From Aggregatilineales bacterium (GTDB lineage: Bacteria; Chloroflexota; Anaerolineae; Aggregatilineales; Ch27): 64,000 nt of DNA. Below the pieces are notes generated by a model, which ran no database searches, had not been told where the DNA came from, and saw nothing but the letters and a program-made list of their open reading frames with translations. The translations under genes were made by a program, and so were the position numbers. Below, one piece after another: positions 22,817 through 64,000 of this stretch. The DNA is taken from the NCBI GenBank assembly GCA_029976005.1, contig JARKOQ010000036.1, positions 1 through 64,000 on the forward strand. Direction: 5' to 3'. Position 1 is the stretch's first letter; the number at the start of each line of letters is the position of its first letter.

Positions 22817-25800
22817 CTAGTTGAGCTTGGTCAGGGTCATCCTGAACTCGCCGTTGGTGAACCCGGCGGCCACGTCGAAACGCGTCACGACGATGACGTA
22901 CGTCCCCGTCATGGGCAGCGTGTATTGAATCTCCGAGTTGGTCGTGTTGTTGGCGTCGTCGTTCTCGGCCAGGGGCGTGCCGGACAGATCCCACAGGTAG
23001 AGCAGGGTATCCAGCGTCCCGGCCGTCGTATCGGCGGTGACGCGGATCGAATCGCCCGCCACGCCATCGAAGCGGTAGTAGGCCGCCAGCGGGTTATCGC
23101 CGACCACTCCGGTGGCGACCGCCCCATAGCTCACCACGGTGGCCTGGCTGAAATCGAAGGGCGGCAGGGCCGTCCCGGACTGGACCGGGCCGGGCGTGGC
23201 CGTCACGATGATGGGCGGGGTGGTGGGAGTCGCCGTCTGGAAGAGCGACGTCGCGGTGATGATCAGCGGCGTCCAGGTCGGCGTCGGTGTCTGGGTCACG
23301 ATCGCCACGGTCGGGGTGAAGGTCGGCGTGGCGATCGCGTTGTCGACCAGCACCGGGATGTCGAGCACGGCGTACCCGCCGCTGTTGGTCAGCACCGACA
23401 GGCGCAGGGTATACGGCCCGTTGGGAAGCTGGCTGACGTCCCAGCGCCCCAGGAACTCCGAGTTGGCGTGACTGACGGCGTAGGGGCCGTCCACGATGGT
23501 GAAGTTCTGGGCCGCCGCGCCGATGCCGTATTCGAGCTGGTAGCTGCGGAAGTCGTAGACCAACACCCGGCCGCGCACCTCGACCACGCCCTCGACTTCG
23601 GCGTTGGAGAGCGGGAAGTCGACGTTGATGATCGGCTGCTGGATGCTGGCGTCGCAGGCCTGGGTCGGCACCGGCTTGGCGGGCACGGCGATCCCGCGCG
23701 CCGCCGCCCACTGGCGGCCGGCGGTGGTGTTGTTGATCCACTCAAACGCGGTCGGATCGCTGATGTTCAGGAAGGTCTGCTCCGCGACGAAGTTGGGGCA
23801 GAACTGGTTGGCGACCAGCCCGTACAGGGTGCTGACCTGGACCTGCTTGAAGATGTCGTTGTCGGCGCTGGCCGGCGGCTGGGCGACCGCGTACAGCTCC
23901 TGGCGGCGGTTGAGGCAGCGCGAGGAGGGCTGCGTGCCGGAGTCGGCGCAGATTTCCGCCGTGGCGACGTTGGGCGGGATGGTGAATTCCACCGGAGCCT
24001 TGCCTGCCAGAGCGGCGGTCATGATCCGGTTCCAGATCGGCGCCGCGCCGGTGATGCCGCTGGTGCCGCGCATGGGGGCGTTGTTGGTGTTGCCGTGCCA
24101 CACTCCGACCACGACGTTCGGGGTATAGCCGATCGTCCAGTTGTCGCGGTTGTCGTTGGTCGTGCCGGTCTTGACCGCCACCGTGTAGCCGGGGATGTTC
24201 AGGATGCTGCCCGACCCGAAGGCCGCGCTGCGCGCCCGGTCGTCGGACAGGATGTGGTTGATCATGTAGGCGTGTTCGGGCTGGACGACCTGCTGCGGCT
24301 CCGGATGGGTGGGGAGCGGGATGTTGGCCCCCTGAACGTCCGTGATCCGGGTGATGGTGTACGGCGCCGGCCGCCGCCCGTTGTTGGCCAGCGTCCCGAA
24401 GGCGACCACCATGTCGTACAGGCGCACGTCGAAGCCGCCCAGCGCGCCGGTCAGCCCGGCCTGCTGCGGCGTGTTGCCGGGGAAGGTCAGGCCCATCGTC
24501 TGCGCCACCTGGGCGAAGCGATCGACCGTCACGAACTCCAGGGCCTTGACGGCCGGGATGTTGTAGCTGTTGGCCAGGGCGGAGCGGACCGACTGCGGCC
24601 CGTGATAGGCTCCGTCGTAGTTGCTGGGGCAGTACCCGGCCCAGCAGGTGGGCGTATCCCAGACGACCGTGCCCGGATACCAGTACTGGCCGGAGGGGTT
24701 GCCCTGGAAGGCAGCCGTATAGACCAGCGGCTTGATTGAGGAGCCGGGCTGCTGCGGCGAGAAGGCCACGTTGACCTGCCCGTCGATCGAGGCGTTGTTG
24801 TAGTCCACGCTGCCGACCATCGCCAGGATCGCCCCGTCGCGCGGGTCCATCACGACCACGCTGGCGTTGTTGCCGCCGATGCCCTGGGCCTGGAGGTTGG
24901 CGACCTCCTGGGCGGCCACGGCCTGGGCGATGTCTTGCAGGCCCGGATCGAGGGTCGTGTAGACGTTGAAACCGGTGCGGTAGATGTCCGCCAGGCCGTA
25001 ATTGGTCTCGAGCTGCTGGGCCACGAAGTTGACGAAATGCGGGTAGCGGATCGTGTTGGTCGGGATGTTGTACTCGCGCGCCTCGACCTGGGCCTTTTCC
25101 ACCACGGCGGCGGCCACGTTCTGCTGGGTGACGCAGAACGGCCCGGTCTGGACGTACGGCTCGTGCTGGAACTGGATGCAGCCGCGCCTGACCATCAGGT
25201 TCAGGACGATGTCCATGCGGGAGAAGGCCGTCTCGCGGTTGACCACGGGGTCGTAGGTCGCCGGGGCCTGGACGATCGAGGCGAGCAGAGCCGCCTGGGG
25301 CAGGTTCAGGTCGCGGGCGCTGATCCCGAAGTAGGTCTGCGCCGCGGCTTCCACGCCGTAGGCCAGGTTGCCGTAGTAAATTTCGTTGAGGTACAGCTCC
25401 AGGATTTCGTTCTTGGTGTAGCGGCGGCCGATCTCGGCGGCGATGATCACCTCGTCGATCTTGCGGCTGAGGCTGATCTCGGTCCGGCGGTCGGCTTCCA
25501 GCACCAGGGCGCGGGCGAGCTGTTGGGTGATCGAGCTGAAGCCGGAGACCACCTCGCCTTCCTGCACGTTCTGGATCATGGCGCGCACCACGGCGATCGC
25601 GTCCCAGCCGGGGTCTTCGAAGAAGCGCTCGTTTTCCGTGCTGATCGTGGCGTGGATCATCCACGGGCTGATTTCCTCCAGCGGCACGCTGATGCGCGTC
25701 CCGCCGGTGGGATCGTTGATCTGCGAAAGCAGGTTGCCGTTGCGGTCGAAAATCCGGGTCGTCTCGAACTGGCTGGCGAGCTGGGTCAGCGCCTCGATCC

Positions 25801-27136
25801 GGTCGTTGTACTGGCCAACCTTGGATACGTAGAAGAGGACGAGGCCCACGATCACCAGCAGAACCAGCCCCAGCCCGCCCAGGACGGCCGCGATCGCCGC
25901 GCGGACGATCCAGCGCTGGGTTTGCTGGGCCTGGCGCTCCTGCACGTGGCGGTAGCGCTCGGACTGGCTGGCGTCCAGGGCGGCCCCGTAATCCGGCTGG
26001 AGCGGCTCCTGGGCGGCCTGGGCCTGATCGTAGCCGTAGGCTTGCTGGGCATCCGGCGAGTAAGCGCCGGCCATCACGGTCGGGTCGGTGTAGCTCTGGC
26101 CGGGGATGGTTTCCTGGCTGTAAGGAAGCTGATCGAAGGCAACCGCCGCCGCGCCGACCAGGGTGGCTTCGGGGTCCAGGCGCGGGACGTGGGCCTGCAC
26201 TTCGGGGATGTCCGGGTTGTCCTCCGCGTAGGCCTGGCTGGTGAGGACATCCTCGGCGGCGTCGAAGCGGCCGTATTCCGAGGCCAGCATGGCGTCGGTA
26301 CCCTGCGGTTCGGCGGGGGCCAGGCGCGGCCGTTCCGCGCGGACCCACTGGCCGTTCTCGTGGCGGTACCACACGTCGGATTCGACGCCGATCATCCACC
26401 AGTAGCCCTGCTCGTCGAGCAGCATGAGCTTGCGCAACTCCGCCTGGAGCGCTTCGCGGGTGAGCTTGCCCTGGTGATAGCGGTGGCGCAGGCCGGTGAC
26501 TTCCTCCTCGACCCGGTCGAACTGGGCGACCAGCCCGGCCAGCGGAGACGTGGCCTGCGGTTCGGGGGTCGGCTCTTCCCCGGCCAGGGTGTCCTGGAGG
26601 GTGGCTCCGGTGGCGTCGGCGCTGGCGGCTTCGGCGGCATACTGCGCCGCCATGGCGGCCGCGATGGCCGCCGCGTCGCCCTCGGCGGGCGCTTCGGCTT
26701 CCACGTCGACGGCTTCCTCGGCGACCGGCTCGGCCGCGACGTCGGAGGTTTCCTCCTCGGCCGGGGCCGGTTCCGGCTGCGGGTAGATGGTGGCGTCGAC
26801 TCCGTCGAGCAGCCGGTCGCCCTCGATACCCGCCGGGATGTACCAGCCGCCTTCGCTCGGCTTGGGGCCGCTTCCGCCCGGCGCGGCCTGTTGGGGTTTG
26901 TACCAGCCGCCGGGGCGCGGGCTGGCAGGTTGTTGGGCGGGCGCGGCGGGAGTCGCCGGGGCGGCCGCCTCGTCCGGGGCGTGCCAGCCGGCCTCGGCCG
27001 ATTCCTCGGCCGGAGAAGCGGCCTCCTCCTCGCCGGGGGCGTGCCAGGCGGCGTGCTTCTCTTCCTCGGGCCACTCGCCGGACTCAGGAGACGCCGGATT
27101 GCGGGGCTGTTCGTCACTTGGCCGGTCAGACATCAT
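22817..27136 (-). CDS. Bifunctional class A penicillin-binding protein with Trp-motif N-terminus and PPC C-terminus
   Basis: A 1439-residue peptidoglycan synthase. Residues 1-405 are a long acidic, Ala/Pro/Gln-rich cytoplasmic region with four spaced motifs (AWHAP, GWHAP, GGWYKP and GGWYIP, at Trp31, 51, 78 and 98) and a compact Trp-rich module at 203-270. A membrane helix spans 410-437. The GT51 domain (460-640) has ENERFFEDPG (catalytic Glu501, Asn in place of the usual Asp) and GFSSITQQ. The transpeptidase domain has Ser799-xx-Lys802, Ser857-x-Asn859 and Lys989-Thr-Gly. An Ig-like domain (about 1165-1265), a Thr/Pro linker and a pre-peptidase C-terminal (PPC) domain (1335-1439) complete it. 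It builds and cross-links cell-wall glycan outside the membrane. CAGGGAG precedes the ATG. Confidence 0.94.
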   Translation of the reverse strand: MMSDRPSDEQPRNPASPESGEWPEEEKHAAWHAPGEEEAASPAEESAEAGWHAPDEAAAPATPAAPAQQPASPRPGGWYKPQQAAPGGSGPKPSEGGWYIPAGIEGDRLLDGVDATIYPQPEPAPAEEETSDVAAEPVAEEAVDVEAEAPAEGDAAAIAAAMAAQYAAEAASADATGATLQDTLAGEEPTPEPQATSPLAGLVAQFDRVEEEVTGLRHRYHQGKLTREALQAELRKLMLLDEQGYWWMIGVESDVWYRHENGQWVRAERPRLAPAEPQGTDAMLASEYGRFDAAEDVLTSQAYAEDNPDIPEVQAHVPRLDPEATLVGAAAVAFDQLPYSQETIPGQSYTDPTVMAGAYSPDAQQAYGYDQAQAAQEPLQPDYGAALDASQSERYRHVQERQAQQTQRWIVRAAIAAVLGGLGLVLLVIVGLVLFYVSKVGQYNDRIEALTQLASQFETTRIFDRNGNLLSQINDPTGGTRISVPLEEISPWMIHATISTENERFFEDPGWDAIAVVRAMIQNVQEGEVVSGFSSITQQLARALVLEADRRTEISLSRKIDEVIIAAEIGRRYTKNEILELYLNEIYYGNLAYGVEAAAQTYFGISARDLNLPQAALLASIVQAPATYDPVVNRETAFSRMDIVLNLMVRRGCIQFQHEPYVQTGPFCVTQQNVAAAVVEKAQVEAREYNIPTNTIRYPHFVNFVAQQLETNYGLADIYRTGFNVYTTLDPGLQDIAQAVAAQEVANLQAQGIGGNNASVVVMDPRDGAILAMVGSVDYNNASIDGQVNVAFSPQQPGSSIKPLVYTAAFQGNPSGQYWYPGTVVWDTPTCWAGYCPSNYDGAYHGPQSVRSALANSYNIPAVKALEFVTVDRFAQVAQTMGLTFPGNTPQQAGLTGALGGFDVRLYDMVVAFGTLANNGRRPAPYTITRITDVQGANIPLPTHPEPQQVVQPEHAYMINHILSDDRARSAAFGSGSILNIPGYTVAVKTGTTNDNRDNWTIGYTPNVVVGVWHGNTNNAPMRGTSGITGAAPIWNRIMTAALAGKAPVEFTIPPNVATAEICADSGTQPSSRCLNRRQELYAVAQPPASADNDIFKQVQVSTLYGLVANQFCPNFVAEQTFLNISDPTAFEWINNTTAGRQWAAARGIAVPAKPVPTQACDASIQQPIINVDFPLSNAEVEGVVEVRGRVLVYDFRSYQLEYGIGAAAQNFTIVDGPYAVSHANSEFLGRWDVSQLPNGPYTLRLSVLTNSGGYAVLDIPVLVDNAIATPTFTPTVAIVTQTPTPTWTPLIITATSLFQTATPTTPPIIVTATPGPVQSGTALPPFDFSQATVVSYGAVATGVVGDNPLAAYYRFDGVAGDSIRVTADTTAGTLDTLLYLWDLSGTPLAENDDANNTTNSEIQYTLPMTGTYVIVVTRFDVAAGFTNGEFRMTLTKLN

Positions 27137-27424: not shown

Positions 27425-29035
27425 TCAGGGCAGGGTGAAGGCGCAGTAGCCGTCCGCCATCAGACAGGTCTGAAGCTCTCGCCCGTCGAGGAGGACACGG
27501 AAGGTGTCCGCGCGGCCGTCCTGCGCCCAGGTGAGGCCGTCCGGGCTGGCGACCATCTGCACGGCGTATTCCGGCAGGGCGCAGGCGCGCGGCAGGGCGC
27601 GGGCGAAGTCGCTCATTTCGCGGACGCGGGCGCAATAACCGGCGGGCAGCCGCCCCTTGAACGCGGCCCCATCCAGGCTCGCGCCGTCCGCCCAGACGAA
27701 ACTCAGCCCGGCGAGGGGCAGGGCGTAATCCGAGTCGTTATAGAGGGTGAAGCTGGCGGAGTCGTAGTACAGCTCCAGGTTGAGCCGGGCATCCGCCGGG
27801 ATGCCGGCCGCGCCGCGATCGATGGTGCCGGCGTAGAACAGGCGGTGGAAGAGCGCCCCGGCATTCCCGCTGATCACCAGCGCCCCGGCCGCGACCGCCA
27901 GCACGACCAGGATCAGCACGCCGATGGGCAACCGGCGGCGGCGCGCCCTGGCCGGTTCTTCGGCCGGTTTGGCCGGTTCGACCGGTTTTTCCTCAGGTTG
28001 GGCGGCGGGTTCGGGCGCCGGCTCGGCGATGGGCTTGGCCTTGCGGGTGCGCGGTTTGGCTTTGCTCTTGGGCAGGCTGGTCGGCGGCGCGGCGACCACC
28101 GGCTCGGCCACAGCCGGCGCGACGGCCTCCGCCAGGCTGGCGGGCTGCACCATCATCGTGGGCATTTCGATCTCGGCGGTGACGTATGCCGCTTCCAACG
28201 CCTTGTAGAACTCCTCCCCGGTCTGGTAGCGGTCGGCCGGTTCCTTGGCCAACGCCCGCAGCAGGACGGCCTCCACCTGGGCGGGGATGGCCGGGTTGAA
28301 GCTGCGCGGGCTGGGGGGCTGGCTGGTGATGTGGCTGAGCGCGATGCTCATCGGGGATTCGTCCTCGAACGGGACGCGCCCGGTGAGCATTTCGTAGACC
28401 ACCACCCCCAGCGAATAGATGTCGCTCTGGGGCACGGCCTGCTGGGAGGAGACGGCCTGTTCCGGGGCGATGTAGCGCGGGGTGCCGAAGGCGGTGCCGC
28501 GCGTATTGTTGCCGCCCAGTTCCATCGCCAGGCCGAAATCGGTCAGGATGGCCCGGTTGTTGGCGTTGCGGTCGTACAGAATGTTGGACGGCTTGATGTC
28601 ACGGTGGATAATGCCGCGCGCGTGGGCGTAATCGAGGGCCGAGCACACGTCCCCCACCGTCTTGAGGATGCGCTCCACCGGCAGGCAGTCGCCGGTCCGG
28701 CGCAGGTCGCGCAGCACCTGGGCCAGGGTCTGGCCGTCCACCAGCTTCATGGCGATGAAGAACTGGCTGTCCGATTCGCCGAACTGGTAGATCGCGACGA
28801 TGTTGGGGTGCTCGAAATGGGCAATGGCCCTGGCTTCCAGGCGGAAGCGATCGATGATTCGCTCGTCCTCGGAATCGTCGGGGATATGCAGGACTTTGAC
28901 GGCGGCGGGGCGGCCCAGGTTTTCATCCAGGCCGCGATACACCCGCGCCATGCCGCCGCGGCCCAACACATCCTGGATGGTATAGTCACCCAGGCGCGTG
29001 CCGATCAGGGGGTCTTTTTCGGTTTTGGCGATCAT
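27425..29035 (-). CDS. Transmembrane Ser/Thr protein kinase (PknB-like)
   Basis: A 536-residue protein. The kinase domain (residues 17-280) is complete: GRGGMARVYRG loop, Lys47, HRDIKPSN (Asp146), DFG (166-168) and an APEQ-type activation segment end (IAPEQ). A Pro/Ala/Lys-rich juxtamembrane stretch (300-365) leads to one membrane helix (370-389) and a 145-residue outer domain of unknown fold that contains Cys residues. It should phosphorylate cytoplasmic targets in response to an external cue. It is the last gene of a minus-strand operon, 53 bases after a pseudo-receiver/roadblock gene, which may be a partner or substrate. Confidence 0.93.
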   Translation of the reverse strand: MIAKTEKDPLIGTRLGDYTIQDVLGRGGMARVYRGLDENLGRPAAVKVLHIPDDSEDERIIDRFRLEARAIAHFEHPNIVAIYQFGESDSQFFIAMKLVDGQTLAQVLRDLRRTGDCLPVERILKTVGDVCSALDYAHARGIIHRDIKPSNILYDRNANNRAILTDFGLAMELGGNNTRGTAFGTPRYIAPEQAVSSQQAVPQSDIYSLGVVVYEMLTGRVPFEDESPMSIALSHITSQPPSPRSFNPAIPAQVEAVLLRALAKEPADRYQTGEEFYKALEAAYVTAEIEMPTMMVQPASLAEAVAPAVAEPVVAAPPTSLPKSKAKPRTRKAKPIAEPAPEPAAQPEEKPVEPAKPAEEPARARRRRLPIGVLILVVLAVAAGALVISGNAGALFHRLFYAGTIDRGAAGIPADARLNLELYYDSASFTLYNDSDYALPLAGLSFVWADGASLDGAAFKGRLPAGYCARVREMSDFARALPRACALPEYAVQMVASPDGLTWAQDGRADTFRVLLDGRELQTCLMADGYCAFTLP

Positions 29036-29088: not shown

Positions 29089-30264
29089 TTACTGGTTGAT
29101 CACACCCATTTGCTGCGCTTCTTCATAGGACAGGCGATTCCCCTCGTTCGCGTCGGCCGCGATCTCGGCCAGTTTGTCGGGATTGAAGAGATCGTCCACC
29201 TTGGACATGTCCAGGTTTTGCAGCCCGGCCAGCATGCCTTCCAGGTCGACGTCGTCGGGCAGCGGCTCCAGGGTCGGTTCGGGCGGCGGCTCAGGCTTCT
29301 TGCTGGCGGGCGGCGGCATGACGGGCAGTCCGGTGGGCCGGGTGGGCAGGGTCGGCCGTTCGGACGCGGGTATGGGTCGCCGATCCTGGGCGGCCGGGCG
29401 TGGTTTGGGCTTGGCTGCCGGCGCGGGCGCGGTGAATTCGAACGCGGCGCGGCCGATCGAGTCCACGATTTCCTGGGCGCTGCGGCGGCCGTAGGTTGTG
29501 GCGACGCCGAAGTTGCGCGCCCCGGTCGTGCCCTCGAAGACCATGCACAGGAAATGGTGCAGGCCGATGGTCAGCACGAAGATGTCGAACTCGTCCCCGT
29601 CGTAGTAATGGATGGCCTGCGGGCGCTTGCCGCCCACCACCGGGCCGATGGTGAGCATGTGCCCGAACATGGGCACCAGTGTCCGGGCCAGGTGCTCGCG
29701 GTCGACGTAGCCGACCGCGCCGATTTCCTGAAGCACGGCCCCGGAGCGATCCATCAGGATGATCGCCATCGCGCCGACGTTGGTCAGCAGCTTGTGCATG
29801 ATCTCGCTGACCGCGCCGACGTTGACGGGCGGCACCGGGCCGAGGTCGGGCAGCGCCGAGGCGGCCGGAGCCGCGCTCGGTTCGGTCGGTTCCTGGCCGT
29901 CCATCACGGCGTGCAGGACGCGCACGAACCGGTCGCCATCGGCCGGGCGGACCAGATGGTACACGGGCGCGCCGACCGGGATTTCGGAGTCGTCCTCCGG
30001 GTCGTCGGCCCCGGCCAGGATGATGATGGGCAGGTTCGGGGCGACCCGGTTGGCTTTGGACGCCAGCTCGAAGCCGCGCATATCCTGCAGCACGGCCGCG
30101 CTGACCAGCAGGTCCATGCCCCCGCGCTGGACTTCTTGCAGGGCATCGGCCCCACCGTGGGCCTCGATGACCACGCCGGGGCGTTCCAGGAGGTCCAGGG
30201 CAGCTCGGATGATCTGGGCCGTGAGGGCCGTGCTGTCCGCTACGAGTATTCGCTGTGCCGTCAT
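29089..30264 (-). CDS. Pseudo-receiver + roadblock/LC7-like protein
   Basis: A 391-residue protein. Residues 4-120 fold like a response-regulator receiver (QRILVADS, then DLLVSAAVLQDMRGFEL, then YHLVRP), but the phospho-acceptor Asp is Ala56 and the conserved Lys is Arg106, so normal phosphorylation is impossible. Residues about 148-275 look like a roadblock/LC7 or related profilin-like domain (AIILMDRSGAVLQEIGAVG start, FLCMVFEG strand). The C-terminal third is Pro-rich and ends in a short acidic helical tail. Roadblock domains often regulate Ras-like GTPases such as MglA. AGGTAGG precedes the ATG and overlaps the stop of the upstream NUDIX gene, so the two are coupled. Confidence 0.75.
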   Translation of the reverse strand: MTAQRILVADSTALTAQIIRAALDLLERPGVVIEAHGGADALQEVQRGGMDLLVSAAVLQDMRGFELASKANRVAPNLPIIILAGADDPEDDSEIPVGAPVYHLVRPADGDRFVRVLHAVMDGQEPTEPSAAPAASALPDLGPVPPVNVGAVSEIMHKLLTNVGAMAIILMDRSGAVLQEIGAVGYVDREHLARTLVPMFGHMLTIGPVVGGKRPQAIHYYDGDEFDIFVLTIGLHHFLCMVFEGTTGARNFGVATTYGRRSAQEIVDSIGRAAFEFTAPAPAAKPKPRPAAQDRRPIPASERPTLPTRPTGLPVMPPPASKKPEPPPEPTLEPLPDDVDLEGMLAGLQNLDMSKVDDLFNPDKLAEIAADANEGNRLSYEEAQQMGVINQ

Positions 30265-30272
30265 GTGGTTAC

Positions 30273-30875
30273 CTACCTGGCGTGAACCGGTCTTAAACCT
30301 TGATTATACTGCATTATACTGCACTGGATGAACTCGTACGATACGGCCCGGAAACGCCCCCATGGCAGCCAGTCCGCCGGTAATTGGCGGAGCTGAGAGG
30401 CCACCTGGCCGAGCTGGGCCACGGGAATCCAGCGAAACGCGTCGATCTCGCCGTTGGTGGGAGCCGGCTCGAACGCCGGCCCGACCTCCGCCAGGAACAC
30501 GTACGAGACGTAGGGGGCATGGCCGGCCTGGGCCAGGTGCAGGTCGTAATCGACCACTCCCAGCAGCCCGGCGTCGTCCACCGCCCGGCCGGTTTCCTCG
30601 TGAATCTCGCGCAGGGCCGAGGCGTAGGGCTGTTCCCCCGGCTCCACCCCGCCGGTGGGCAGGCGGTAAATCCCGGCCGGGTAGACGGTCTTGTTGACCA
30701 GCAGCAGCTCGCCGCCGCGCTGGATGACCATGATCACCTCGGCGACGCGCCCCCGGCCCTGTCCGAACCGGCCGGTGCGCAGCGGGTCGACCTCGACCGT
30801 GACCGTCTGGACGGGCACGTCCGGCGCGAAGAGCGACAGCGGCCGCAGTTCATCTCTATTGTATATCCGACCCAT
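30273..30875 (-). CDS. NUDIX hydrolase
   Basis: A 200-residue protein with a perfect Nudix box (GGVEPGE, seven residues, REIHEETGR). It cleaves a nucleoside diphosphate derivative; the substrate is unknown. It is the first gene of an operon with the pseudo-receiver/roadblock gene (8-base gap) and the Ser/Thr kinase. Its last codons include two direct copies of ATTATACTGC (plus strand 30303-30322), giving two minus-strand TATAAT boxes inside the gene. A promoter at 30961-30990 drives it. Confidence 0.9.
   Translation of the reverse strand: MGRIYNRDELRPLSLFAPDVPVQTVTVEVDPLRTGRFGQGRGRVAEVIMVIQRGGELLLVNKTVYPAGIYRLPTGGVEPGEQPYASALREIHEETGRAVDDAGLLGVVDYDLHLAQAGHAPYVSYVFLAEVGPAFEPAPTNGEIDAFRWIPVAQLGQVASQLRQLPADWLPWGRFRAVSYEFIQCSIMQYNQGLRPVHAR
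30303..30318 (-). promoter_or_regulatory. Duplicated TATAAT inside the NUDIX 3' end
   Basis: Two perfect minus-strand TATAAT boxes (30308-30303 and 30318-30313), ten bases apart, lie about 40-50 bases before the pseudo-receiver start. The -35 regions are poor, so an internal promoter is only possible. Confidence 0.35.
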
Positions 30876-55744: not shown

Positions 55745-58087
55745 GTGTCTGCCGTGACCAATCCACCTGAAGATCTGCTCAACATTTTCTGGGTCGAGGC
55801 GACCGAGTACCTGGAAGCCCTCAACGCGATCCTGCTGCAACTGGAGGTCGCCGGCCCGGAAGAAAACCACACCGCCGAGCTGCGCGAGATTTCCCGCATC
55901 GCCCACAGCCTGAAGGGCGCCGCCCGCGCGGTCGGCCTGAGCACGATCGAGACCCTGGCCCACCAGATGGAAGACGTGTTCGACGGGGTGCAGGAGGGCC
56001 GTTTCGCGCTCTCGCCGGACATCTGCGACGCGCTGTATGACGCCCTGGACGTGATCCAGGTCTATACCAGCGGCGGAGAAGCCGAGCCGGAAACGGTCGA
56101 GGCCGTGCGCGGGCAGCTCCGCACCCTGGCCGCCGCCGGTCAGCCCGCCGGCCCGGATCAGGAGAACGGCCAGCGCTCTGCCCCGGCCAAGCCCAAGGCC
56201 AAACAAGTCAAGCCGCCCGCGCCGGTCGAACCGGCGGCCCCGCCCAAACCCGTTCCTGCCCCATCGGTGGAAGCCGCCCCCGCGCCCAGCGCGGCCGCCC
56301 GCGCCACCGAGGACACGGTGCGCGTCAGCCTGGCCAAGCTCGACCAGCTCATGGGTCAGGCCAGCGAGCTGCTGATCGCCCGGATGCACGGCGAGCAGCG
56401 CCGCAGCGACCTGCACGCCCTGCTCCAGGAACATCACCGCTGGCAGCGCATCTGGCGGCAGGCCCGCTCGGCCTACATCCGTACCATTCGCCGCCTGCGC
56501 GACATGCGCGAGCTGTCCACCGCCGCCGACGGCGGGGCCGACCTGCTGATGCTGCTCGATTTCATCGACGCGACCCAGCACTACATGACCCAGGCCGGGC
56601 GATCGCTGCTGACCCTCAACCGCGACCTGGCCCAGGACAACCTGCATCTGACCTCGCTGGTCGACGGGCTTCAGGCCGATATCGCCAGCGTGCGCATGCT
56701 GCCCTTTGAGACGATCCTCAATACCTTCCAGCGCATGGTGCGCGACCTGGCCCACGACGGCGGCAAGGAAGTCAGTCTGGTCGTCAAGGGCGCGGAGGTC
56801 GAGCTGGACAAGCACGTGCTGGAGCTGCTTAAAGACCCGCTGATGCACATCCTGCGCAACTCGGTCGATCACGGCATCGAGCTGCCGGCCCAGCGGATCG
56901 AGGCCGGCAAGGCCCCCCAGGGCACGATCACGCTGCGCGTCGCCTCGCGCGGCAGCGACATTCACGTGTCCGTCAGCGACGACGGGCGCGGCATCAACCC
57001 GGACGTGGTGCGCGAGCGGGCGGTGGCCGCCGGGCTGATCGGCGAGGCCGAGGCCGAGTCGCTCTCCCGGCAGGAGGCGATCGCCCTGGTGTTGGAGCCG
57101 GGCTTCTCCACGGCCAGCCAGGTGACCGCGGTCTCCGGGCGCGGGGTGGGGCTGGATGTGGTTCGCCAGCGGGTGGAGGCCCTGCGCGGCCGGTTGTGGA
57201 TCGAAAATACCCCCGGCAAGGGCGTCACCTTCCACCTGATCGTCCCGGTCTCCCTGACGCGCATTCGCTGCCTGCTGGCCCGCGCCGGGGACGAATCATA
57301 CGCGATCCCGCTGACCTCCGTGGCCCGGATCATCACCGTGCGCCCGGAGGAAGTCTTCACGGTCGAGGACCGGCCGATGATCCAGGTCCTGGGCCGGCCG
57401 ATGCCGCTGGTCTACCTGCGCAACGTCCTGGAACGGCCCGGCGCGCCGCCGCCCCTGGGCGAGCACACCCCGGTGCTCGTTCTGCGCTCGACCGAGCGCG
57501 GCGTGGCCTTCATCATCGACGAGCTGCTCAGCGAGCAGGAGCTGGTGCTCAAGACCCTGGGCAGCGAACTGAGCCGGATTCGCAACGTGGCCGGGGCGGC
57601 CATCCTGGGCACGGGCGACGTGGTGATCGTGCTCAACACCAGTGACCTGATCAAGAGCGCCCGCCGCGCCCGGACGATCATCACCGAGACTCCGGCGGCG
57701 GAGCCGGAAGAACCGGCCGTCCGCGCTCACTGGATTCTGGTCGTGGACGACTCGCTGACCACCCGCACCCTGGAGAAGAACATCCTGGAAGCGGCGGGCT
57801 ACCGCGTCCGCACGGCGACCGACGGCACCGAGGCCATCCAGACGTTGATCGAGCATCCCTGCGACGTGATCGTGGCGGATGTCGAAATGCCGCATATGAA
57901 CGGCTTCGAACTGGCCCAGCGGGTCAAGAGCGATGCGCGCTGGAAGGAGATTCCCTTCATCCTGGTCACGTCCCTGGATTCGCCCACCGATCGGGAGCGC
58001 GGCCTGCGGGCCGGGGCGGATGCTTACCTGGTCAAGACCCGCTTCGACCAGGACGAACTGCTGCAAACCATCGAGCAGTTGGTGTGA
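55745..58087 (+). CDS. cheA: CheA hybrid histidine kinase with C-terminal receiver
   Basis: A 780-residue kinase. The HPt domain has His54 in RIAHSLKGAAR. A Pro/Ala linker (about 130-185) follows, then an enlarged helical dimerisation region (190-345), the ATPase (HILRNSVDHGIE, SDDGRGI, SGRGVGLDVV), a CheW-like regulatory domain and a receiver (about 660-780) with DDS and acceptor Asp in VIVADVEMP. No obvious P2 domain is present. Hybrid CheA with a receiver sink is typical of systems other than classical flagellar chemotaxis. Start at GTG 55745 is uncertain: the GTG at 55754 is also possible, and neither has a strong ribosome site. Confidence 0.93.
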   Translation: MSAVTNPPEDLLNIFWVEATEYLEALNAILLQLEVAGPEENHTAELREISRIAHSLKGAARAVGLSTIETLAHQMEDVFDGVQEGRFALSPDICDALYDALDVIQVYTSGGEAEPETVEAVRGQLRTLAAAGQPAGPDQENGQRSAPAKPKAKQVKPPAPVEPAAPPKPVPAPSVEAAPAPSAAARATEDTVRVSLAKLDQLMGQASELLIARMHGEQRRSDLHALLQEHHRWQRIWRQARSAYIRTIRRLRDMRELSTAADGGADLLMLLDFIDATQHYMTQAGRSLLTLNRDLAQDNLHLTSLVDGLQADIASVRMLPFETILNTFQRMVRDLAHDGGKEVSLVVKGAEVELDKHVLELLKDPLMHILRNSVDHGIELPAQRIEAGKAPQGTITLRVASRGSDIHVSVSDDGRGINPDVVRERAVAAGLIGEAEAESLSRQEAIALVLEPGFSTASQVTAVSGRGVGLDVVRQRVEALRGRLWIENTPGKGVTFHLIVPVSLTRIRCLLARAGDESYAIPLTSVARIITVRPEEVFTVEDRPMIQVLGRPMPLVYLRNVLERPGAPPPLGEHTPVLVLRSTERGVAFIIDELLSEQELVLKTLGSELSRIRNVAGAAILGTGDVVIVLNTSDLIKSARRARTIITETPAAEPEEPAVRAHWILVVDDSLTTRTLEKNILEAAGYRVRTATDGTEAIQTLIEHPCDVIVADVEMPHMNGFELAQRVKSDARWKEIPFILVTSLDSPTDRERGLRAGADAYLVKTRFDQDELLQTIEQLV

Positions 58088-58090
58088 TCC

Positions 58091-59167
58091 ATGCCCAGTT
58101 CCCCGCTGCGCGTCCTGATTGCCGATGACAGCGCCACCGTGCGCCGTCACCTGGGCAGCCTGATCGCCGACGCGCCCGATATGGCGGTGATCGGCGAGGC
58201 TCACGACGGCCAGGAGGCCATCACGCTTGCCGCGCGGCTGCGGCCGGATATCATCAGCATGGACATCCAGATGCCGCGCCTGGATGGGCTGGCCGCGACG
58301 CGCCAGTTGATGCAGGAAACGCCGCTGCCGATCGTGATCGTCAGCGCTCACGTGGAAAACAGCGAGGATGTCGACCTGGCCTTCATGGCCCTGGAGGCGG
58401 GCGCGCTGGCCGTCCTGCCGACTCCGCCGCACCGCGGCCATCCCCAGTTCGCCGCCAGCCGCGACCAGTTCCTGACCACGCTGCGCGCCATGGCCGGGGT
58501 GAGCGTGGTGCGGCGCTGGACGCAGCCGGTCAAACGGGCTCCGGCCCTGCCGGTCGCCCATCCGCCCGTCCAGCCGGACAGTGAGCCGCAGGTGATCGTC
58601 ATGGGGGCCAGCGCCGGAGGGCCGGTGGCCCTGCACGAGATTTTGCGTGCGCTCCCGGCCAGCCTGCCGGTGCCGGTCGCGGTCGTGCAGCACATGGCCG
58701 ACGGCTTCGTCGAAGGGCTGATTCGCTGGCTGGACAGCACCAGTCCGTTGCGGGTGATCCAGGCCGCGCACGGCCAGTTCATCCGGCCGGGGGAGGTGGT
58801 GATCGCCGGCGGAGGCAGCCACCTCACCCTCCAGCGCATCGGCAAGAGCGTGCGGGTCGTGCTCAGCCAGGAAAAGGGGGCGACCCCGTACCAGCCTTCG
58901 GTCGACGCCCTGTTTTATTCCGCCGCCGAGCAGTTCGGGGCGCGGGCGCTGGGGGTTCTGCTGACGGGGATGGGCGACGACGGCGCGCGCGGCCTGCTGG
59001 CCCTGCGCAATCGCGGGGCGCGCACGCTGGTCCAGGATCAGCAGTCGTGCCTGGTGTATGGGATGCCCGGCGCGGCAGTGAGCCTGGGGGCGGCCGAGCA
59101 GATCGTGCCGCTGCACCAGATCGCGCCGACGCTGCTGGATTTGATGAAAGCCGTCCCGAATGAGTAG
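58091..59167 (+). CDS. cheB: CheB protein-glutamate methylesterase
   Basis: A 358-residue enzyme with a receiver (acceptor Asp58 in IISMDIQMP) and a methylesterase domain. The catalytic triad is Ser174 (GASAGGP), His201 (VVQHMADG) and Asp297 (TGMGDDGARG). It removes methyl groups from the receptor to reset signalling. No CheR methyltransferase is in the window, so either it lies elsewhere or CheB has another job. The gene starts three bases after the cheA stop. Confidence 0.94.
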   Translation: MPSSPLRVLIADDSATVRRHLGSLIADAPDMAVIGEAHDGQEAITLAARLRPDIISMDIQMPRLDGLAATRQLMQETPLPIVIVSAHVENSEDVDLAFMALEAGALAVLPTPPHRGHPQFAASRDQFLTTLRAMAGVSVVRRWTQPVKRAPALPVAHPPVQPDSEPQVIVMGASAGGPVALHEILRALPASLPVPVAVVQHMADGFVEGLIRWLDSTSPLRVIQAAHGQFIRPGEVVIAGGGSHLTLQRIGKSVRVVLSQEKGATPYQPSVDALFYSAAEQFGARALGVLLTGMGDDGARGLLALRNRGARTLVQDQQSCLVYGMPGAAVSLGAAEQIVPLHQIAPTLLDLMKAVPNE

Positions 59168-59314
59168 GAATTTCTTCCTGAGTGATCCGTGAACCGCAAG
59201 GGCATGATAAACTGAGGAAGAGATGAGTGGTGAGCGAAGGTCGTCCAGAGGGGGACGGTTGCGAGTTTCGAACGACTCTCTAACCGGATACCGACCGAGG
59301 TAAGGAGTACAAAC

Positions 59315-59689
59315 ATGGCGCTTGAAGTATTATTGGTGGAAGATAGCCGCACACAGGCCGCTCAGATCAAGGAAACGCTGGAGAGCGTGGGGTTGAAGGT
59401 ACGGGTGGCTTACGACGGGCCGGAGGGCCTGCGTGATGCCCTCGAGAATCCGCCGGCGCTGGTGGTGCTGGATGTCAAGCTGCCCAGCATGGATGGCTTT
59501 CAGGTCTGCCGCCGGTTAAAACGCAACCCGGCGACCCAGGATATCCCGGTGATTATGCTGACCGAGAAAGCCAGTGCCAAAGCGACCATGTCGGGCCTGC
59601 ATGCCGGCGCGGATGACTACATCCCAAAGGACATATTCGCTTCGGAACACCTGATCAATACGCTGCATGAACTGGGTGTTCTGGAGTAA
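59315..59689 (+). CDS. Single-domain response regulator, CheY-like
   Basis: A 124-residue receiver with intact sites: ED at residues 9-10, Asp53 in VVLDVKLP, Thr in MLTEKA, Lys105 in IPKD. AAGGAG lies ahead of the ATG. A 147-base gap separates it from cheB, so it may have its own promoter, although it continues the same direction. It is the likely phosphoryl output of CheA. Confidence 0.92.
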   Translation: MALEVLLVEDSRTQAAQIKETLESVGLKVRVAYDGPEGLRDALENPPALVVLDVKLPSMDGFQVCRRLKRNPATQDIPVIMLTEKASAKATMSGLHAGADDYIPKDIFASEHLINTLHELGVLE

Positions 59690-59713
59690 GGCACTGCTCT
59701 AAGGACGCACTCC

Positions 59714-60163
59714 ATGACCAACGATGAGTATGTGGTCATTCCGCCCGTGCTGACGGTCACCGTCGAAGACAGCATGGACATCATGATCGCGCGGGATACC
59801 GCCCGGCGCGCGGCCGCGCTGCTGGGCTTCGCGCCTGCTTTCCGCGCGCAGTTGGCCGGGGCGGCCAGCGCGCTGGCTGAGTTGGTCCTCAAGACGGGCA
59901 ATCCCCACGAGCTGAACTACAACGGCGTCCAGAACGGCGGGCGGGTCGGCATCCAGGTCTCGTGCGAGGCTGCCTGGCTGGCCGACGTCTCGCCGGGCAA
60001 CGTGGAAATGGCGCTGCGGGCCAAAATGGGCGACCTGATCGACGACATCACCCTCAAGGTGGCCGATCCGCCCATCATCCTCCTGACCATGTGGCTCTCC
60101 TCTCCGCGTGAGACGCAGACGTACGATAACCTGGCTGATGACGAAACAGTGATGGATCTATGA
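59714..60163 (+). CDS. Degenerate RsbT-like (GHKL) protein
   Basis: A 149-residue protein. DSMDIMIARDTARRAAALLGF and QLAGAASALAELVLKTG align with the start of RsbT-type anti-sigma regulators, where SELARN normally holds the ATP-binding N-box. Here that segment reads SALAEL, so the Glu and Asn are lost and ATP binding is doubtful. It probably serves as a protein-protein module in the chemosensory complex. Its stop overlaps the next start by four bases. Confidence 0.6.
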   Translation: MTNDEYVVIPPVLTVTVEDSMDIMIARDTARRAAALLGFAPAFRAQLAGAASALAELVLKTGNPHELNYNGVQNGGRVGIQVSCEAAWLADVSPGNVEMALRAKMGDLIDDITLKVADPPIILLTMWLSSPRETQTYDNLADDETVMDL

Positions 60164-60600
60164 CCTCAGCCGAGCCAGTCGCGGTCGTGGTTTGTACCGT
60201 GGGCGAGCAGCAGTATGCCATTCCGGTCGCGGCCATTCTGGAGGTCGCGGCCCTGGTGGAGGTCACGGCCGTCCCGCAAGGGCCGGCGGAGATGGTCGGG
60301 GTGGTCAACCGGCGCGGCGCGGTCATCCCGCTGTTGGATTTGCGGCTTTGTCTGGGGCAGCCTTCGCGGCCCCTGAGCCTGTCGACGCTCTTTGTCGTGG
60401 TGGAAGCCGCGGGCATCGTCGCCGGTCTGATCGTGGATGATGTCCGCGAAGTGATTACCCTCCCCGCTGAGGCGCTCAAGCCCCGCACCCGGGGAGGGCC
60501 GTTTGTGCAGGGCATGGCCGCCGTCGATCAGACGCCCCTGCTGGTGCTCAATACCGCGGCCTTGCTCCAGAGTTTTGCTCCGTCTGAGCTGGGGATGTGA
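60160..60600 (+). CDS. cheW: CheW-like adaptor (second)
   Basis: A 146-residue CheW domain without extensions (AVVVCTVGEQQYAIPVA, GVVNRRGAVIPLLDLRL). Having a second, different CheW in one operon suggests that it could link a separate partner, such as the downstream pseudo-receiver/roadblock protein. The overlap with the RsbT-like gene is four bases (ATGA). Confidence 0.92.
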   Translation: MTSAEPVAVVVCTVGEQQYAIPVAAILEVAALVEVTAVPQGPAEMVGVVNRRGAVIPLLDLRLCLGQPSRPLSLSTLFVVVEAAGIVAGLIVDDVREVITLPAEALKPRTRGGPFVQGMAAVDQTPLLVLNTAALLQSFAPSELGM

Positions 60601-60610
60601 AGAGAGACGC

Positions 60611-61543
60611 ATGACCGACCTGGACCAGAAACGGCGCAATCGCGTGCTGATCGTCGCCAAAGATGAGGATTTGCGGGAGGCGCTGGTCGATACGCTGGAA
60701 AACGCGGGCGGCTACCTGACCAGCCAGGCCGGGAGCTTCGAGGAAGCCCTCAGCGAAATCCTGCTCAGTGAGTTCGCGCTGATCGTCACCGAGACGGAGC
60801 TGCCCGACCTGAGCGGCATGGACCTGCTGGCCGTCGTCGGCGGGCTGCGGCCGGGGGTGTCGGTCATGATGATCGACGACGACCTGTCCGCCAAGTCGGC
60901 CGTGGCCGCGTTCCGCCTGGGCGCGGTGGATTACCTCTATAAGCCCGTCAACCTCGAATTCATCCTGATGCAGATCGAGCGCGAGCTGGAGGCCAAGCGG
61001 GCCTCCGAGGCCCCGGCCCTGCCGGAGCAGCCCAAGCGCCAGTCCGCCCGCGACCGCGAACGGCGGCTCAACCCCGGCACGCGCGCCGCCGCCCTGGTGC
61101 TGGGCCGCGCCCAGTTCAAGCGGATCACGATGGAGCTGAACCGGCTGCGCTCCCACGTGCGGGCCAATTTCGTCGGGCTGGTCGATACCGACGGCAACAT
61201 GATCGGCGCGGCGGGCACCCTGGAAGACTACGACCTGACCCTGCTCACGCGCGCCCTGGCGATCGACCACGACGCCACCAAGTCCCTGGCGACCATCCTG
61301 GACGAGAACCGCTTCCATTCGACCTATTTCGAGGGGGAGCACAGCGGCGTCTACATCATCGAATTTGGACAGCCTTATATCGTATCTTTGGCCGTGATCT
61401 GCCCGGTGGACGTCAAGCCCGGCATGGTCTGGCTGTACAGCAAGCGCACCGCCGCCGTGGTGGACGAGATCATGCAGACCGTGCAGATTCCGCGCTCGAT
61501 GCCCGACCTGGGCGAGGGCGGCGGCGAGGAAGGCAAGTCCTGA
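60611..61543 (+). CDS. Pseudo-receiver (Asp to Glu) + roadblock/LC7-like protein
   Basis: A 310-residue protein. Residues 10-130 are a receiver, but the two N-terminal acidic residues are Ala-Lys (LIVAKDED) and the acceptor Asp is Glu61 (IVTETELPDLSG), while the partner Lys111 is kept (YLYKP). This looks like a permanently phospho-mimicking or inactive receiver. Residues about 170-290 form a roadblock/LC7-like domain (FVGLVDTDGNMIGAAG, YIVSLAVICP). It is the last gene of the chemosensory operon, followed by a strong terminator, so it is a likely output or scaffold. Its layout repeats that of the protein at 29089-30264. Confidence 0.82.
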   Translation: MTDLDQKRRNRVLIVAKDEDLREALVDTLENAGGYLTSQAGSFEEALSEILLSEFALIVTETELPDLSGMDLLAVVGGLRPGVSVMMIDDDLSAKSAVAAFRLGAVDYLYKPVNLEFILMQIERELEAKRASEAPALPEQPKRQSARDRERRLNPGTRAAALVLGRAQFKRITMELNRLRSHVRANFVGLVDTDGNMIGAAGTLEDYDLTLLTRALAIDHDATKSLATILDENRFHSTYFEGEHSGVYIIEFGQPYIVSLAVICPVDVKPGMVWLYSKRTAAVVDEIMQTVQIPRSMPDLGEGGGEEGKS

Positions 61544-61644: not shown

Positions 61645-61692
61645 TCTGTCTACTGTTTGCTGTCGACTGTCTACTCCCTACTGTCCACCGAT
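61645..61692. repeat. CTGTCTACTGTTTGCTGTCGACTG repeat overlapping a stop codon
   Basis: Third locus of the GACTGTCGACAGT vocabulary. On the minus strand the CAGTAG it contains provides the last Gln and the stop of the helical-repeat gene. Confidence 0.7.
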
Positions 61693-64000
61693 TTTCCAGC
61701 GCCGCGCGGCGGTGACGGCCTCGGTCGCTTCGCGGGCCGCCGCCGGGCCGCCGATCGCCAGCAGCACCGGCACCAGGGCGGAAACGTCGCTCAGCAGGTC
61801 CGGCACCGGCCGGCGGCTGAGCAGGAGCAGAATCTCGCACCACAGGCTGTAGGCGACGTTGCTCGGCTGGACCGCCGTCCACAGCGGCGCCAGGCGGGCC
61901 AGCAGCGTGGCGCGCAGGGAAGAATCGGACACATGGCAGGTGGCGAGCAGCGCCTCGCGCAGCACGTGGGCCTCGGAGGGGATGGCCGTGGGCAGGGTAT
62001 CCGCCGCGAGCAGCGGGGCGACCACGGAGATGCCGCTGGCGCGGTCGTACTCGTCCTGAATCTCGCGCACGGCGTCCAGCAGGACCGGGATGATCATTGC
62101 CTGTCGCTCCGGGTTGGAGAAGCTCCACAGGGCGACCAGAGCCATCGCCCGGTCGTAGTGGTCGGTGATCTCCCCGGCGGCGGTCCAGGCGCTTTCCAGC
62201 ACCCCGGCATGGGCTTCGCCCGCCAGGTGGGGCAGAAAGGTCACCAGGGTAGTCGAGCGGTCGTAGGGATCGGTGATGTCCAGGGCGATCCTGACCGCCG
62301 GGGCCATGCTCGCGGCGGGCAGGTGCGGCACCAGGCTGGCCAGCGCGCGGGCGCGGCGGTATTCGACCGTGATGCCGCGCAGATCGGTCAGGATTTCTTC
62401 GATCACCGTTGTGACCGTCTCGCCTTCCGGCAGGTAAGGCAGCAGCGCGATCAGGGCGCTGACCTTCTCGAAGGGGTTGCTCAGGGTATGGGCGTCCGCC
62501 AGGCAGTCCGCCAGGGCTTGCTGGTAGGGCACCAGCAGCGGGGCCAGGGTGGAGAGGGCGCGCACGCGCGCCCGTTCCTTGGAGATCGAGCGGGCGGTGC
62601 TCAACGCTTCGGACAGGGTGCGGGCCGCGAGGTCGTCCTGGAGGTGGGGCGCGATCTCGGCCAGGGCCAGCACCCGCTCAAGCTGGCGCGGCAGGGCCAG
62701 GGCCAGGGCCAGGGCGTCCTGCCAGGTGCGATCGGCCGCGCGCTGGGGCAGGTGCTCGGCCAGGGACTTGAAGGCCAGGTAGCGCGCGTCGCGCTGGCGG
62801 ATGTCGTGGGCCACGGCCATCGCCGCCACGGCCATGTCGCCGGGCAGGCCGGGGGCCAGCTCCGCCAGGAGCTGGGCGCGGACGTGCTCGTCCGGGATCG
62901 CGTTCACGGCCGCCAGGGCCTCGCCATGCAGCTCGCGCGGCAGCCGTCCGTGCAGGCCGACCAGGGCCCGCGCGCGGGCGGCGCGCTGGTGCATGTTGAC
63001 GGCGATTTCCAGGGCGCGCTTGAGGATCAGGGGGAATTCCACCTCCTGGCCGGTCATCGTCTCCATGTGGGGGGCGAAAGCGGCCAGGGCGCGGGCGCGC
63101 TCCTCCTCGTTAGGGGCGGTCGCGATGGCTTCCAGGGCTGCCGCCCGCAAGCGCGGCTGAAGCTCCGCGGGCAGGACTTCGGCCAGGGCGGTCAGCGACC
63201 TGGCCCGCGCCGAGGGGTCCTTGACGTGAGCCGCGACGGTCAGGGCGCGGTGGTGAACCTCGCTGGTCAGGTGCGGCGCGAGCGCGACCAGCGCCCCGGC
63301 CTGGAGGTCGGGCTGGGACAGCGCGGCGATGGTATCCAGTTCGGCCAGCATCACGGCGACGCGCACCGTCGGGGGCAGGTAGGGCGTCAGCGCGGTCAGG
63401 GCGCGCAGGCGGGCTTCGGGACTCTGCATGTGGGCGGCCAGGTCGAGCGTCTCGGCGACCACGCCGCTGGGCAGCTCGTTTTCCAGGGCGGCGCGCAGCA
63501 GCGGCAGCAGTTCGACCAGCAGTTCCACCCGCGTCACGGGATGGGCCACCTGCAAGGCGGCCTGATGCGCCTCGCTGATCGCCCGGCGGCGCGTCTCGCC
63601 GGACAGGTGGGCCGCCAGCAGGAACAGCGCCCGCGCCTTGCCGACGGGGTCCGGCAGGGCCAGCGCCTCGTGCAGCAGGTCGATCCGGGCCTGCATGGTC
63701 AGATGCTCGGAGAAGGCGGTCGCCGCCAGCAGCCCGGCCGTGGCGTCGGCCGGCTGCGGCAGGGGGGGCAGGGGGGCGCTCGCCGCCGGAGCCGCCTGCA
63801 AACTGGCCGCCAGCGCATAAGCCACCTGGCGGCCCGCCATGCGCGGCCCCTGATCGATGGCCTGCTGCCAGCGCTGCTCCAGGACGTCCGGGGCCAGGTA
63901 CGGCCAGTAACCGGGCCGGGTGGGCGCAGGCCCGGCGGTGGCGCCGGTGGCGCTGCCGGCGGCGTTGCCGGCGGGGGTGTCGGACGGGCTATCGGACGGT
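61678..64000 (-). CDS. HEAT-like helical repeat protein (5' partial)
   Basis: The minus-strand frame stays open to base 64000, so the true start is outside; the first visible ATG at 63840 is internal. The product is at least 770 residues, nearly all made of a repeat of about 35-36 residues with the core ARALAALAPHLP and VxIPDExxRAR-like turns (for example IQDEYDRASG and ITDPYDRSTT), giving about 20 copies. A Pro/Gly/Thr-rich segment precedes the repeats. The solenoid should bind other proteins. I do not know this family's role. The stop is supplied by a GACAGT repeat. Confidence 0.75.
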   Translation of the reverse strand, partial: PSDSPSDTPAGNAAGSATGATAGPAPTRPGYWPYLAPDVLEQRWQQAIDQGPRMAGRQVAYALAASLQAAPAASAPLPPLPQPADATAGLLAATAFSEHLTMQARIDLLHEALALPDPVGKARALFLLAAHLSGETRRRAISEAHQAALQVAHPVTRVELLVELLPLLRAALENELPSGVVAETLDLAAHMQSPEARLRALTALTPYLPPTVRVAVMLAELDTIAALSQPDLQAGALVALAPHLTSEVHHRALTVAAHVKDPSARARSLTALAEVLPAELQPRLRAAALEAIATAPNEEERARALAAFAPHMETMTGQEVEFPLILKRALEIAVNMHQRAARARALVGLHGRLPRELHGEALAAVNAIPDEHVRAQLLAELAPGLPGDMAVAAMAVAHDIRQRDARYLAFKSLAEHLPQRAADRTWQDALALALALPRQLERVLALAEIAPHLQDDLAARTLSEALSTARSISKERARVRALSTLAPLLVPYQQALADCLADAHTLSNPFEKVSALIALLPYLPEGETVTTVIEEILTDLRGITVEYRRARALASLVPHLPAASMAPAVRIALDITDPYDRSTTLVTFLPHLAGEAHAGVLESAWTAAGEITDHYDRAMALVALWSFSNPERQAMIIPVLLDAVREIQDEYDRASGISVVAPLLAADTLPTAIPSEAHVLREALLATCHVSDSSLRATLLARLAPLWTAVQPSNVAYSLWCEILLLLSRRPVPDLLSDVSALVPVLLAIGGPAAAREATEAVTAARRWKIGGQ

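Follow-up and report, generated by a model that had tools for sequence, protein, structure and literature searches.

A pseudo-receiver fused to an MglB-type roadblock domain, with a conserved C-terminal motif and a linked membrane Ser/Thr kinase gene, in Aggregatilineales

Known receiver and roadblock systems and the locus analysed

RomR of Myxococcus has a receiver, a disordered linker and a conserved C-terminus and works together with MglA and MglB. Fusions of a receiver with a roadblock domain (Response_reg-Robl_LC7) are on record and have been mentioned without a function (Wuichet and Sogaard-Andersen, PMC4316618), and in the actinobacterial conservon (cvn) a roadblock protein, a kinase and a Ras-like GTPase constitute one signalling module (PMC4316618). 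Pseudo-receivers in general usually keep the first acidic residue and lose the second, and their activation and inactivation in bacteria are largely unknown according to a recent review (PMC12632262). In the literature that was searched, no receiver-roadblock protein from Chloroflexota turned up.

The window, which is the whole stretch of 64,000 nucleotides analysed from an Aggregatilineales bacterium, contains a gene, here named protein A, whose product joins a pseudo-receiver to an MglB-type roadblock domain, an architecture that was already known. In general outline protein A resembles RomR, which unlike protein A has no roadblock domain of its own. A relative, protein B, is encoded elsewhere in the window. 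The features considered are the following:

29089..30264, minus strand: protein A, 391-aa ORF (pseudo-receiver, roadblock domain, linker and C-terminal motif)
29902..30252, minus strand: pseudo-receiver domain of protein A, residues 5-121 (PF00072, E 7.2e-9)
30097..30099, minus strand: codon of Ala56 of protein A, the phospho-acceptor Asp position (alignment of 81 orthologues)
29440..29823, minus strand: roadblock/LC7 domain of protein A, residues 148-275 (MglB profile matches, model fold, Foldseek)
29251..29439, minus strand: Pro-rich variable linker of protein A, residues 276-338 (alignment, composition by family)
29092..29250, minus strand: conserved C-terminal tail of protein A, residues 339-391 (tail profile search)
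29098..29133, minus strand: C-terminal motif LSYEEAQQMGVI of protein A, residues 378-389 (motif counts)
30273..30875, minus strand: NUDIX hydrolase gene, upstream of protein A (PF00293, E 3.7e-19)
27425..29035, minus strand: transmembrane Ser/Thr protein kinase with extracytoplasmic C-terminus (PF00069, E 1.3e-49)
60611..61543, plus strand: protein B, pseudo-receiver and roadblock protein of a chemosensory operon (PF00072, E 2e-12; PF03259, 22 bits against a cut-off of 23)

The NUDIX gene ends at 30273, 8 bases from the protein A gene, and the kinase gene starts at 29035, 53 bases away. Both gaps, together with Ala56, Arg106, the roadblock-like domain and the Pro-rich tail, had been described in an earlier note on this DNA, whose description was correct in every point; the C-terminal motif was missed in it.

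Domain architecture of protein A and protein B

The N-terminal domain of protein A matches PF00072 over residues 6-95 with 36.2 bits, against a cut-off of 30.2. Its five active-site positions are Asp10, Ser11, Ala56, Ala84 and Arg106 (D-S-A-A-R), and from the set that defines a phosphorylatable receiver (DD pair, acceptor Asp, Thr/Ser and Lys) only the first Asp, Asp10, is kept in the window protein, the second acidic residue, the acceptor, the Thr/Ser and the Lys having been lost.

The window protein by itself does not reach the cut-off of Pfam Robl_LC7 (PF03259). This model was matched by 7 of 25 protein A family members, and two orthologues, with 31.2 and 28 bits, exceeded the curated cut-off of 23. 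A profile built from the protein A family matched the sequences of MglB crystal structures with E values of about 1e-12 over positions 155-271. The full-length AlphaFold model, obtained with three sequences, had a mean pLDDT of 51 and was unusable, and the structure search was limited to the roadblock part. The model of residues 138-285 (three sequences, pLDDT 66, pTM 0.65) showed the roadblock order of elements, with the fold alpha-beta-beta-alpha-beta-beta-beta-alpha, and the 30 best PDB matches found with Foldseek were all MglB, the top ones being those of Thermus and Myxococcus, with a best E value of 2e-7, a probability of 1.00, a TM score of about 0.5-0.6 and an rmsd of about 5. On the sequence evidence, which is decisive here, the model being of moderate quality, the middle domain is a true roadblock/LC7 domain. 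The stand-alone roadblock family of Aggregatilineales, which is one narrow family, did not match the protein A roadblock profile (hhalign probability 1.4).

Protein A had been regarded earlier as the same module as the one at 60611. A BLASTP comparison of proteins A and B gave nothing significant (E 0.55), and a profile comparison was used instead. With hhalign, the roadblock domain of protein A was aligned with protein B over 119 columns (probability 94, E 1.1e-7), which upholds the relationship of the middle domains. Moreover, the profile of the class-wide receiver-roadblock family matched the roadblock domain of protein A (E 1.2e-24) and protein B over its whole length (1.4e-33), and both proteins are assigned to this family. 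By inspection, the receiver of protein B has AK in place of the DD pair, Glu at the acceptor position and Asp in place of Thr, with the Lys kept, and it is also a pseudo-receiver. Both proteins join a pseudo-receiver with a related roadblock domain. Protein B differs from protein A in its location within a chemosensory operon, in its retained receiver Lys, in having no such tail and in its better conservation between families. Protein B is the last gene of this operon (55745-61543, plus strand), which includes CheA-like, CheB-like, CheY-like and CheW genes and a gene for a 149-aa product (59714-60163) without Pfam or NCBIfam match, whose resemblance to an RsbT-type ATPase domain is an impression. 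Convergent with protein B, a 720-aa protein of repeated helical look is encoded on the minus strand at 61678-63840, with no Pfam match.

The tail of protein A ends in a motif that in the family takes the approximate form [LFVI][STDGN][FYLW][ED][EDQ]AxxxG[LIV][LIV]. Within the final 45 residues, a loose version matched 67 of the 81 orthologues and 1 of the 677 remaining genes at their loci, and a stricter version 45 orthologues and none of those genes; the patterns were derived from the protein A family itself, so that these counts measure specificity and are not an independent discovery. When 31 genomes of the order were searched with a tail profile, the protein A gene family alone rose above chance. 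The motif is also present in many homologues from other orders, some of which carry several copies; regular-expression matches occur four times in the linker at locus L194 (genome G293) and three times at L204 (G383), as if the linker were multivalent there.

The tail resembles half a plectin repeat. PF00681 was matched by 11 of 21 tail peptides at E values up to 1 (best 4.5e-5), and a PDB search with the tail profile picked repeats of desmoplakin and envoplakin, which were outscored by designed pentatricopeptide repeats through the summing of weak repeats. Membership of the plectin-repeat family was rejected, as unrelated controls gave similar weak matches at genome scale and the window's genome gave none.

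Receiver degeneration, inheritance and gene neighbourhood

A match to protein A was found in 87 of the 121 sampled Aggregatilineales genomes, almost always as a single copy. The gene tree, a quick search in which several forks are weakly supported, agrees with the family codes, and protein A can be regarded as a single-copy orthologue inherited vertically across eight families (f1 to f8, the window belonging to f1). Genera g28, g25 and g34 (for example genomes G038, G057, G033 and G048) are without protein A and hold only one to three matches to the window kinase, unlike most other sampled genomes, which hold ten or more. The absence from the kinase-poor g28 tells little, because receiver-like candidates are also few there.

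Among the 81 aligned orthologues, position 56 is occupied by Ala in 54, Asp in 8, Thr in 5 and Ser in 5 (the residues seen besides Asp are A, S, T, N and V), position 106 is Arg in 64, and Asp10 persists in 77. Of 30 homologues from other orders of the class, 29 carry the acceptor Asp, and the receivers of this set are otherwise essentially intact. Within Aggregatilineales, most receivers of family f3 are intact. The acceptor Asp is still found in the f5 protein and in one of the two f6 proteins, where the second acidic residue is lost and the Thr/Ser and Lys are partly lost. In f1, f2, f4, f7 and f8 the acceptor is gone, except in one f2 sequence. Since the homologues of sister orders are intact and intermediates survive in f5 and f6, the simplest reading is that the acceptor Asp was lost inside the order.

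A GTPase matching an MglA-type profile was found in 12 of 40 homologue loci elsewhere in the class, the profile having been built from GTPases of sister-order receiver-roadblock loci themselves; one example of these GTPases matches a solved MglA structure at E 2e-61. These loci also commonly encode histidine kinases and additional proteins of receiver, roadblock or PATAN-roadblock-like type. At L198, L207, L208, L213, L217, L220, L225 and others, the cluster around the receiver-roadblock gene contains histidine kinases, an MglA-type GTPase and roadblock genes that stand alone or are fused to PATAN.

The kinase encoded beside protein A in the window has one transmembrane helix, near residue 371, and the Lys, HRD and DFG motifs. 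It scored 326.7 bits with the NCBIfam PASTA-kinase model, for which the cut-off is 450, and the match covers the kinase domain and the transmembrane helix only. The C-terminal 140 residues of this protein (27425-29035, minus strand) are extracytoplasmic, contain four cysteines and have no Pfam match; a lamin-tail-like character is possible, as an impression only.

A kinase gene lies directly downstream of protein A on the same strand in all five f1 loci, 16 of 30 in f2, 6 of 10 in f7 and all seven in f8, that is, in 34 loci of four families, which are few and related, so that these loci are far from 34 independent events. Adjacency is absent from all loci of f3 (0 of 9), f4 (0 of 16), f5 and f6; in f4 the gene after protein A usually encodes, by our own reading, a putative formate-tetrahydrofolate ligase in place of the kinase. 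The spacing is often below 30 bases, with a 4-base overlap in three f2 pairs; both genes are probably co-transcribed in the four families. The best match to the window kinase in a genome is usually the one that adjoins protein A, though many genomes hold at least ten related kinases, and the pair is therefore old and largely orthologous. The NUDIX gene lies upstream of protein A in four f1 genomes only. From the proposed conserved order of NUDIX, pseudo-receiver and kinase genes, the kinase has consequently been retained as a conserved neighbour and the NUDIX gene, confined to the window's own family, has been discarded from the unit. After the kinase gene, a class A penicillin-binding protein gene (22817-27136, minus strand) is found in the window and in three f1 relatives; its product has a long disordered-looking N-terminus, and a link with the cell envelope is conceivable.

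A link of protein A to a Ser/Thr kinase is supported by this neighbourhood. What had been suggested as attachment of the module to another input is better read as descent, because the family predates the order, within which its receiver died.

Proposed role of protein A and comparison with known systems

Protein A would descend from class-wide response regulators with an MglB-type roadblock as second domain, whose sister-order relatives have genes for histidine kinases and for MglA, a Ras-like GTPase, as neighbours. The receiver of the Aggregatilineales protein would have lost Asp phosphorylation and serve as an unswitched surface for protein interactions. The roadblock domain presumably retains the ability to dock a partner, either a second roadblock subunit or some distant Ras-like GTPase, and the short conserved C-terminal motif, held out on the flexible linker, would recruit a target. 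With one orthologous membrane Ser/Thr kinase beside it in four families, protein A would be a likely scaffold or regulator in the pathway of the adjacent kinase. As a role, a phosphorylation-independent scaffold built on the MglB-type domain appears most likely, and the proposal as a whole is given about an even chance. The architecture, the orthology, the order in which residues were lost, the linkage of the kinase gene and the conservation of the tail are observed, and co-transcription, a GTPase or roadblock partner, the scaffold role and any contact with the kinase are inferred from them. Points that count against the proposal are the scarcity of true MglA in the order, the lack of an adjacent kinase in f3, f4 and about half of f2, and the mismatch between the roadblock profile and the stand-alone roadblock family of the order. 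Rewiring of protein A is suggested, and not proven, by the kinase linkage together with the lost phosphorylation site. A broader reading is put forward tentatively and is itself doubtful: a response regulator belonging to a Ras-like GTPase module would have passed, stepwise and within one order, from the control of histidine kinases into a pathway of a Ser/Thr kinase, with receivers in all three states (intact, half-degenerate and dead) persisting and a family-specific C-terminal docking motif kept throughout.

Protein A could instead be a substrate of the adjacent kinase, the Asp switch having given way to phosphorylation on Ser/Thr residues in the linker, in the tail motif or in the pseudo-receiver itself. 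The conserved and sometimes overlapping gene pair in four families, the active-site motifs present in 37 of 40 of the kinases, and the fact that the acceptor Asp is lost in the region of the tree where the gene pair arises are consistent with this, but the coincidence of Asp loss and kinase linkage on the tree may be a single event, and f4 retains protein A with a dead receiver and no kinase neighbour. Phosphorylation of the tail by the kinase had also been raised earlier as a possibility, and the alignment of 81 orthologues does not support it, with no Ser/Thr conserved in the linker. At the Ser/Thr position of the motif, f2 sequences with an adjacent kinase have S in 5, T in 5, D in 5 and N in 1, and those without it have S in 5, T in 5, D in 2 and G in 1; in f7 this residue is S or T both with and without the kinase, and among families without the kinase it is Gly or Asp in f4 and Ser in f3. 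The residues S, T, D, N and G at this position read like a helix N-cap preference. Because Ser/Thr is about equally frequent with and without the kinase, the substrate idea gains nothing from these data, and it is considered rather unlikely.

Rather improbable as well is that protein A still acts as an MglB-like GAP or co-factor of a small GTPase, the kinase neighbour being incidental. The MglB-type fold and the MglA operons of sister orders would fit such a function, and five f4 genomes have a gene for a more distant Ras-like GTPase some 4-5 kb away from protein A; several genomes of this family also have a stand-alone roadblock gene head to head with protein A, or one gene further. Against it, close MglA matches were found in only 3 of 61 genomes of the order, and the scanned GTPase profile matched no gene near protein A in the loci of families other than f4, save a second locus in genome G008. 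A direct link with MglA was rejected for the window's genome, which has no close MglA match; there, as in most of the order, the roadblock partner cannot be the ancestral MglA.

It is also conceivable that protein A acts on the kinase, and not the reverse, by regulating it (as an inhibitor, for instance) or localising it, with no other partner. The order of both genes, protein A then kinase, and their short or overlapping spacing fit this direction, but nothing is specific for it, and protein A persists without an adjacent kinase in f4 and part of f2, which leaves this reading a slim chance. That protein A is a decaying relic without function is hardly credible, since the drift of receiver residues (A, S, T, N or V at position 56) contrasts with a single copy across eight families, Asp10 in 77 of 81 sequences and a strongly conserved roadblock core and tail.

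The locus can be compared with the systems described. With MglB, the GAP of MglA, protein A shares the roadblock fold by sequence profile and model; unlike MglB it has an N-terminal pseudo-receiver and a long tail, and most of the order lacks true MglA. The conservon is likewise a signalling module of roadblock protein and kinase, but it has a histidine kinase and a separate roadblock protein, whereas the protein A locus has a Ser/Thr kinase, a fused pseudo-receiver and no GTPase alongside. The conservon set of histidine kinase, roadblock, CvnC-type and Ras-like GTPase genes was not found together at this locus, where the neighbours are the NUDIX, Ser/Thr kinase and class A penicillin-binding protein genes. 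The recorded Response_reg-Robl_LC7 fusions (PMC4316618) are like protein A in having a receiver followed by an MglB-like region, some of them below the Pfam Robl_LC7 threshold, and unlike protein A, whose receiver is dead across most of the order, which ends in a conserved tail and which has a Ser/Thr kinase gene next to it. As a docking peptide, the tail motif is a defined and testable candidate.

Finally, protein A follows the common pattern of PF00072 pseudo-receivers (PMC12632262), with the first acidic residue kept and the second and the D/T/K residues lost. Unlike pseudo-receivers in general, intact, partly degenerate and dead forms are found within one single-copy orthologous lineage, combined with the same output domain and tail, and because all three receiver states coexist there, the consequence of losing Asp phosphorylation is directly testable.
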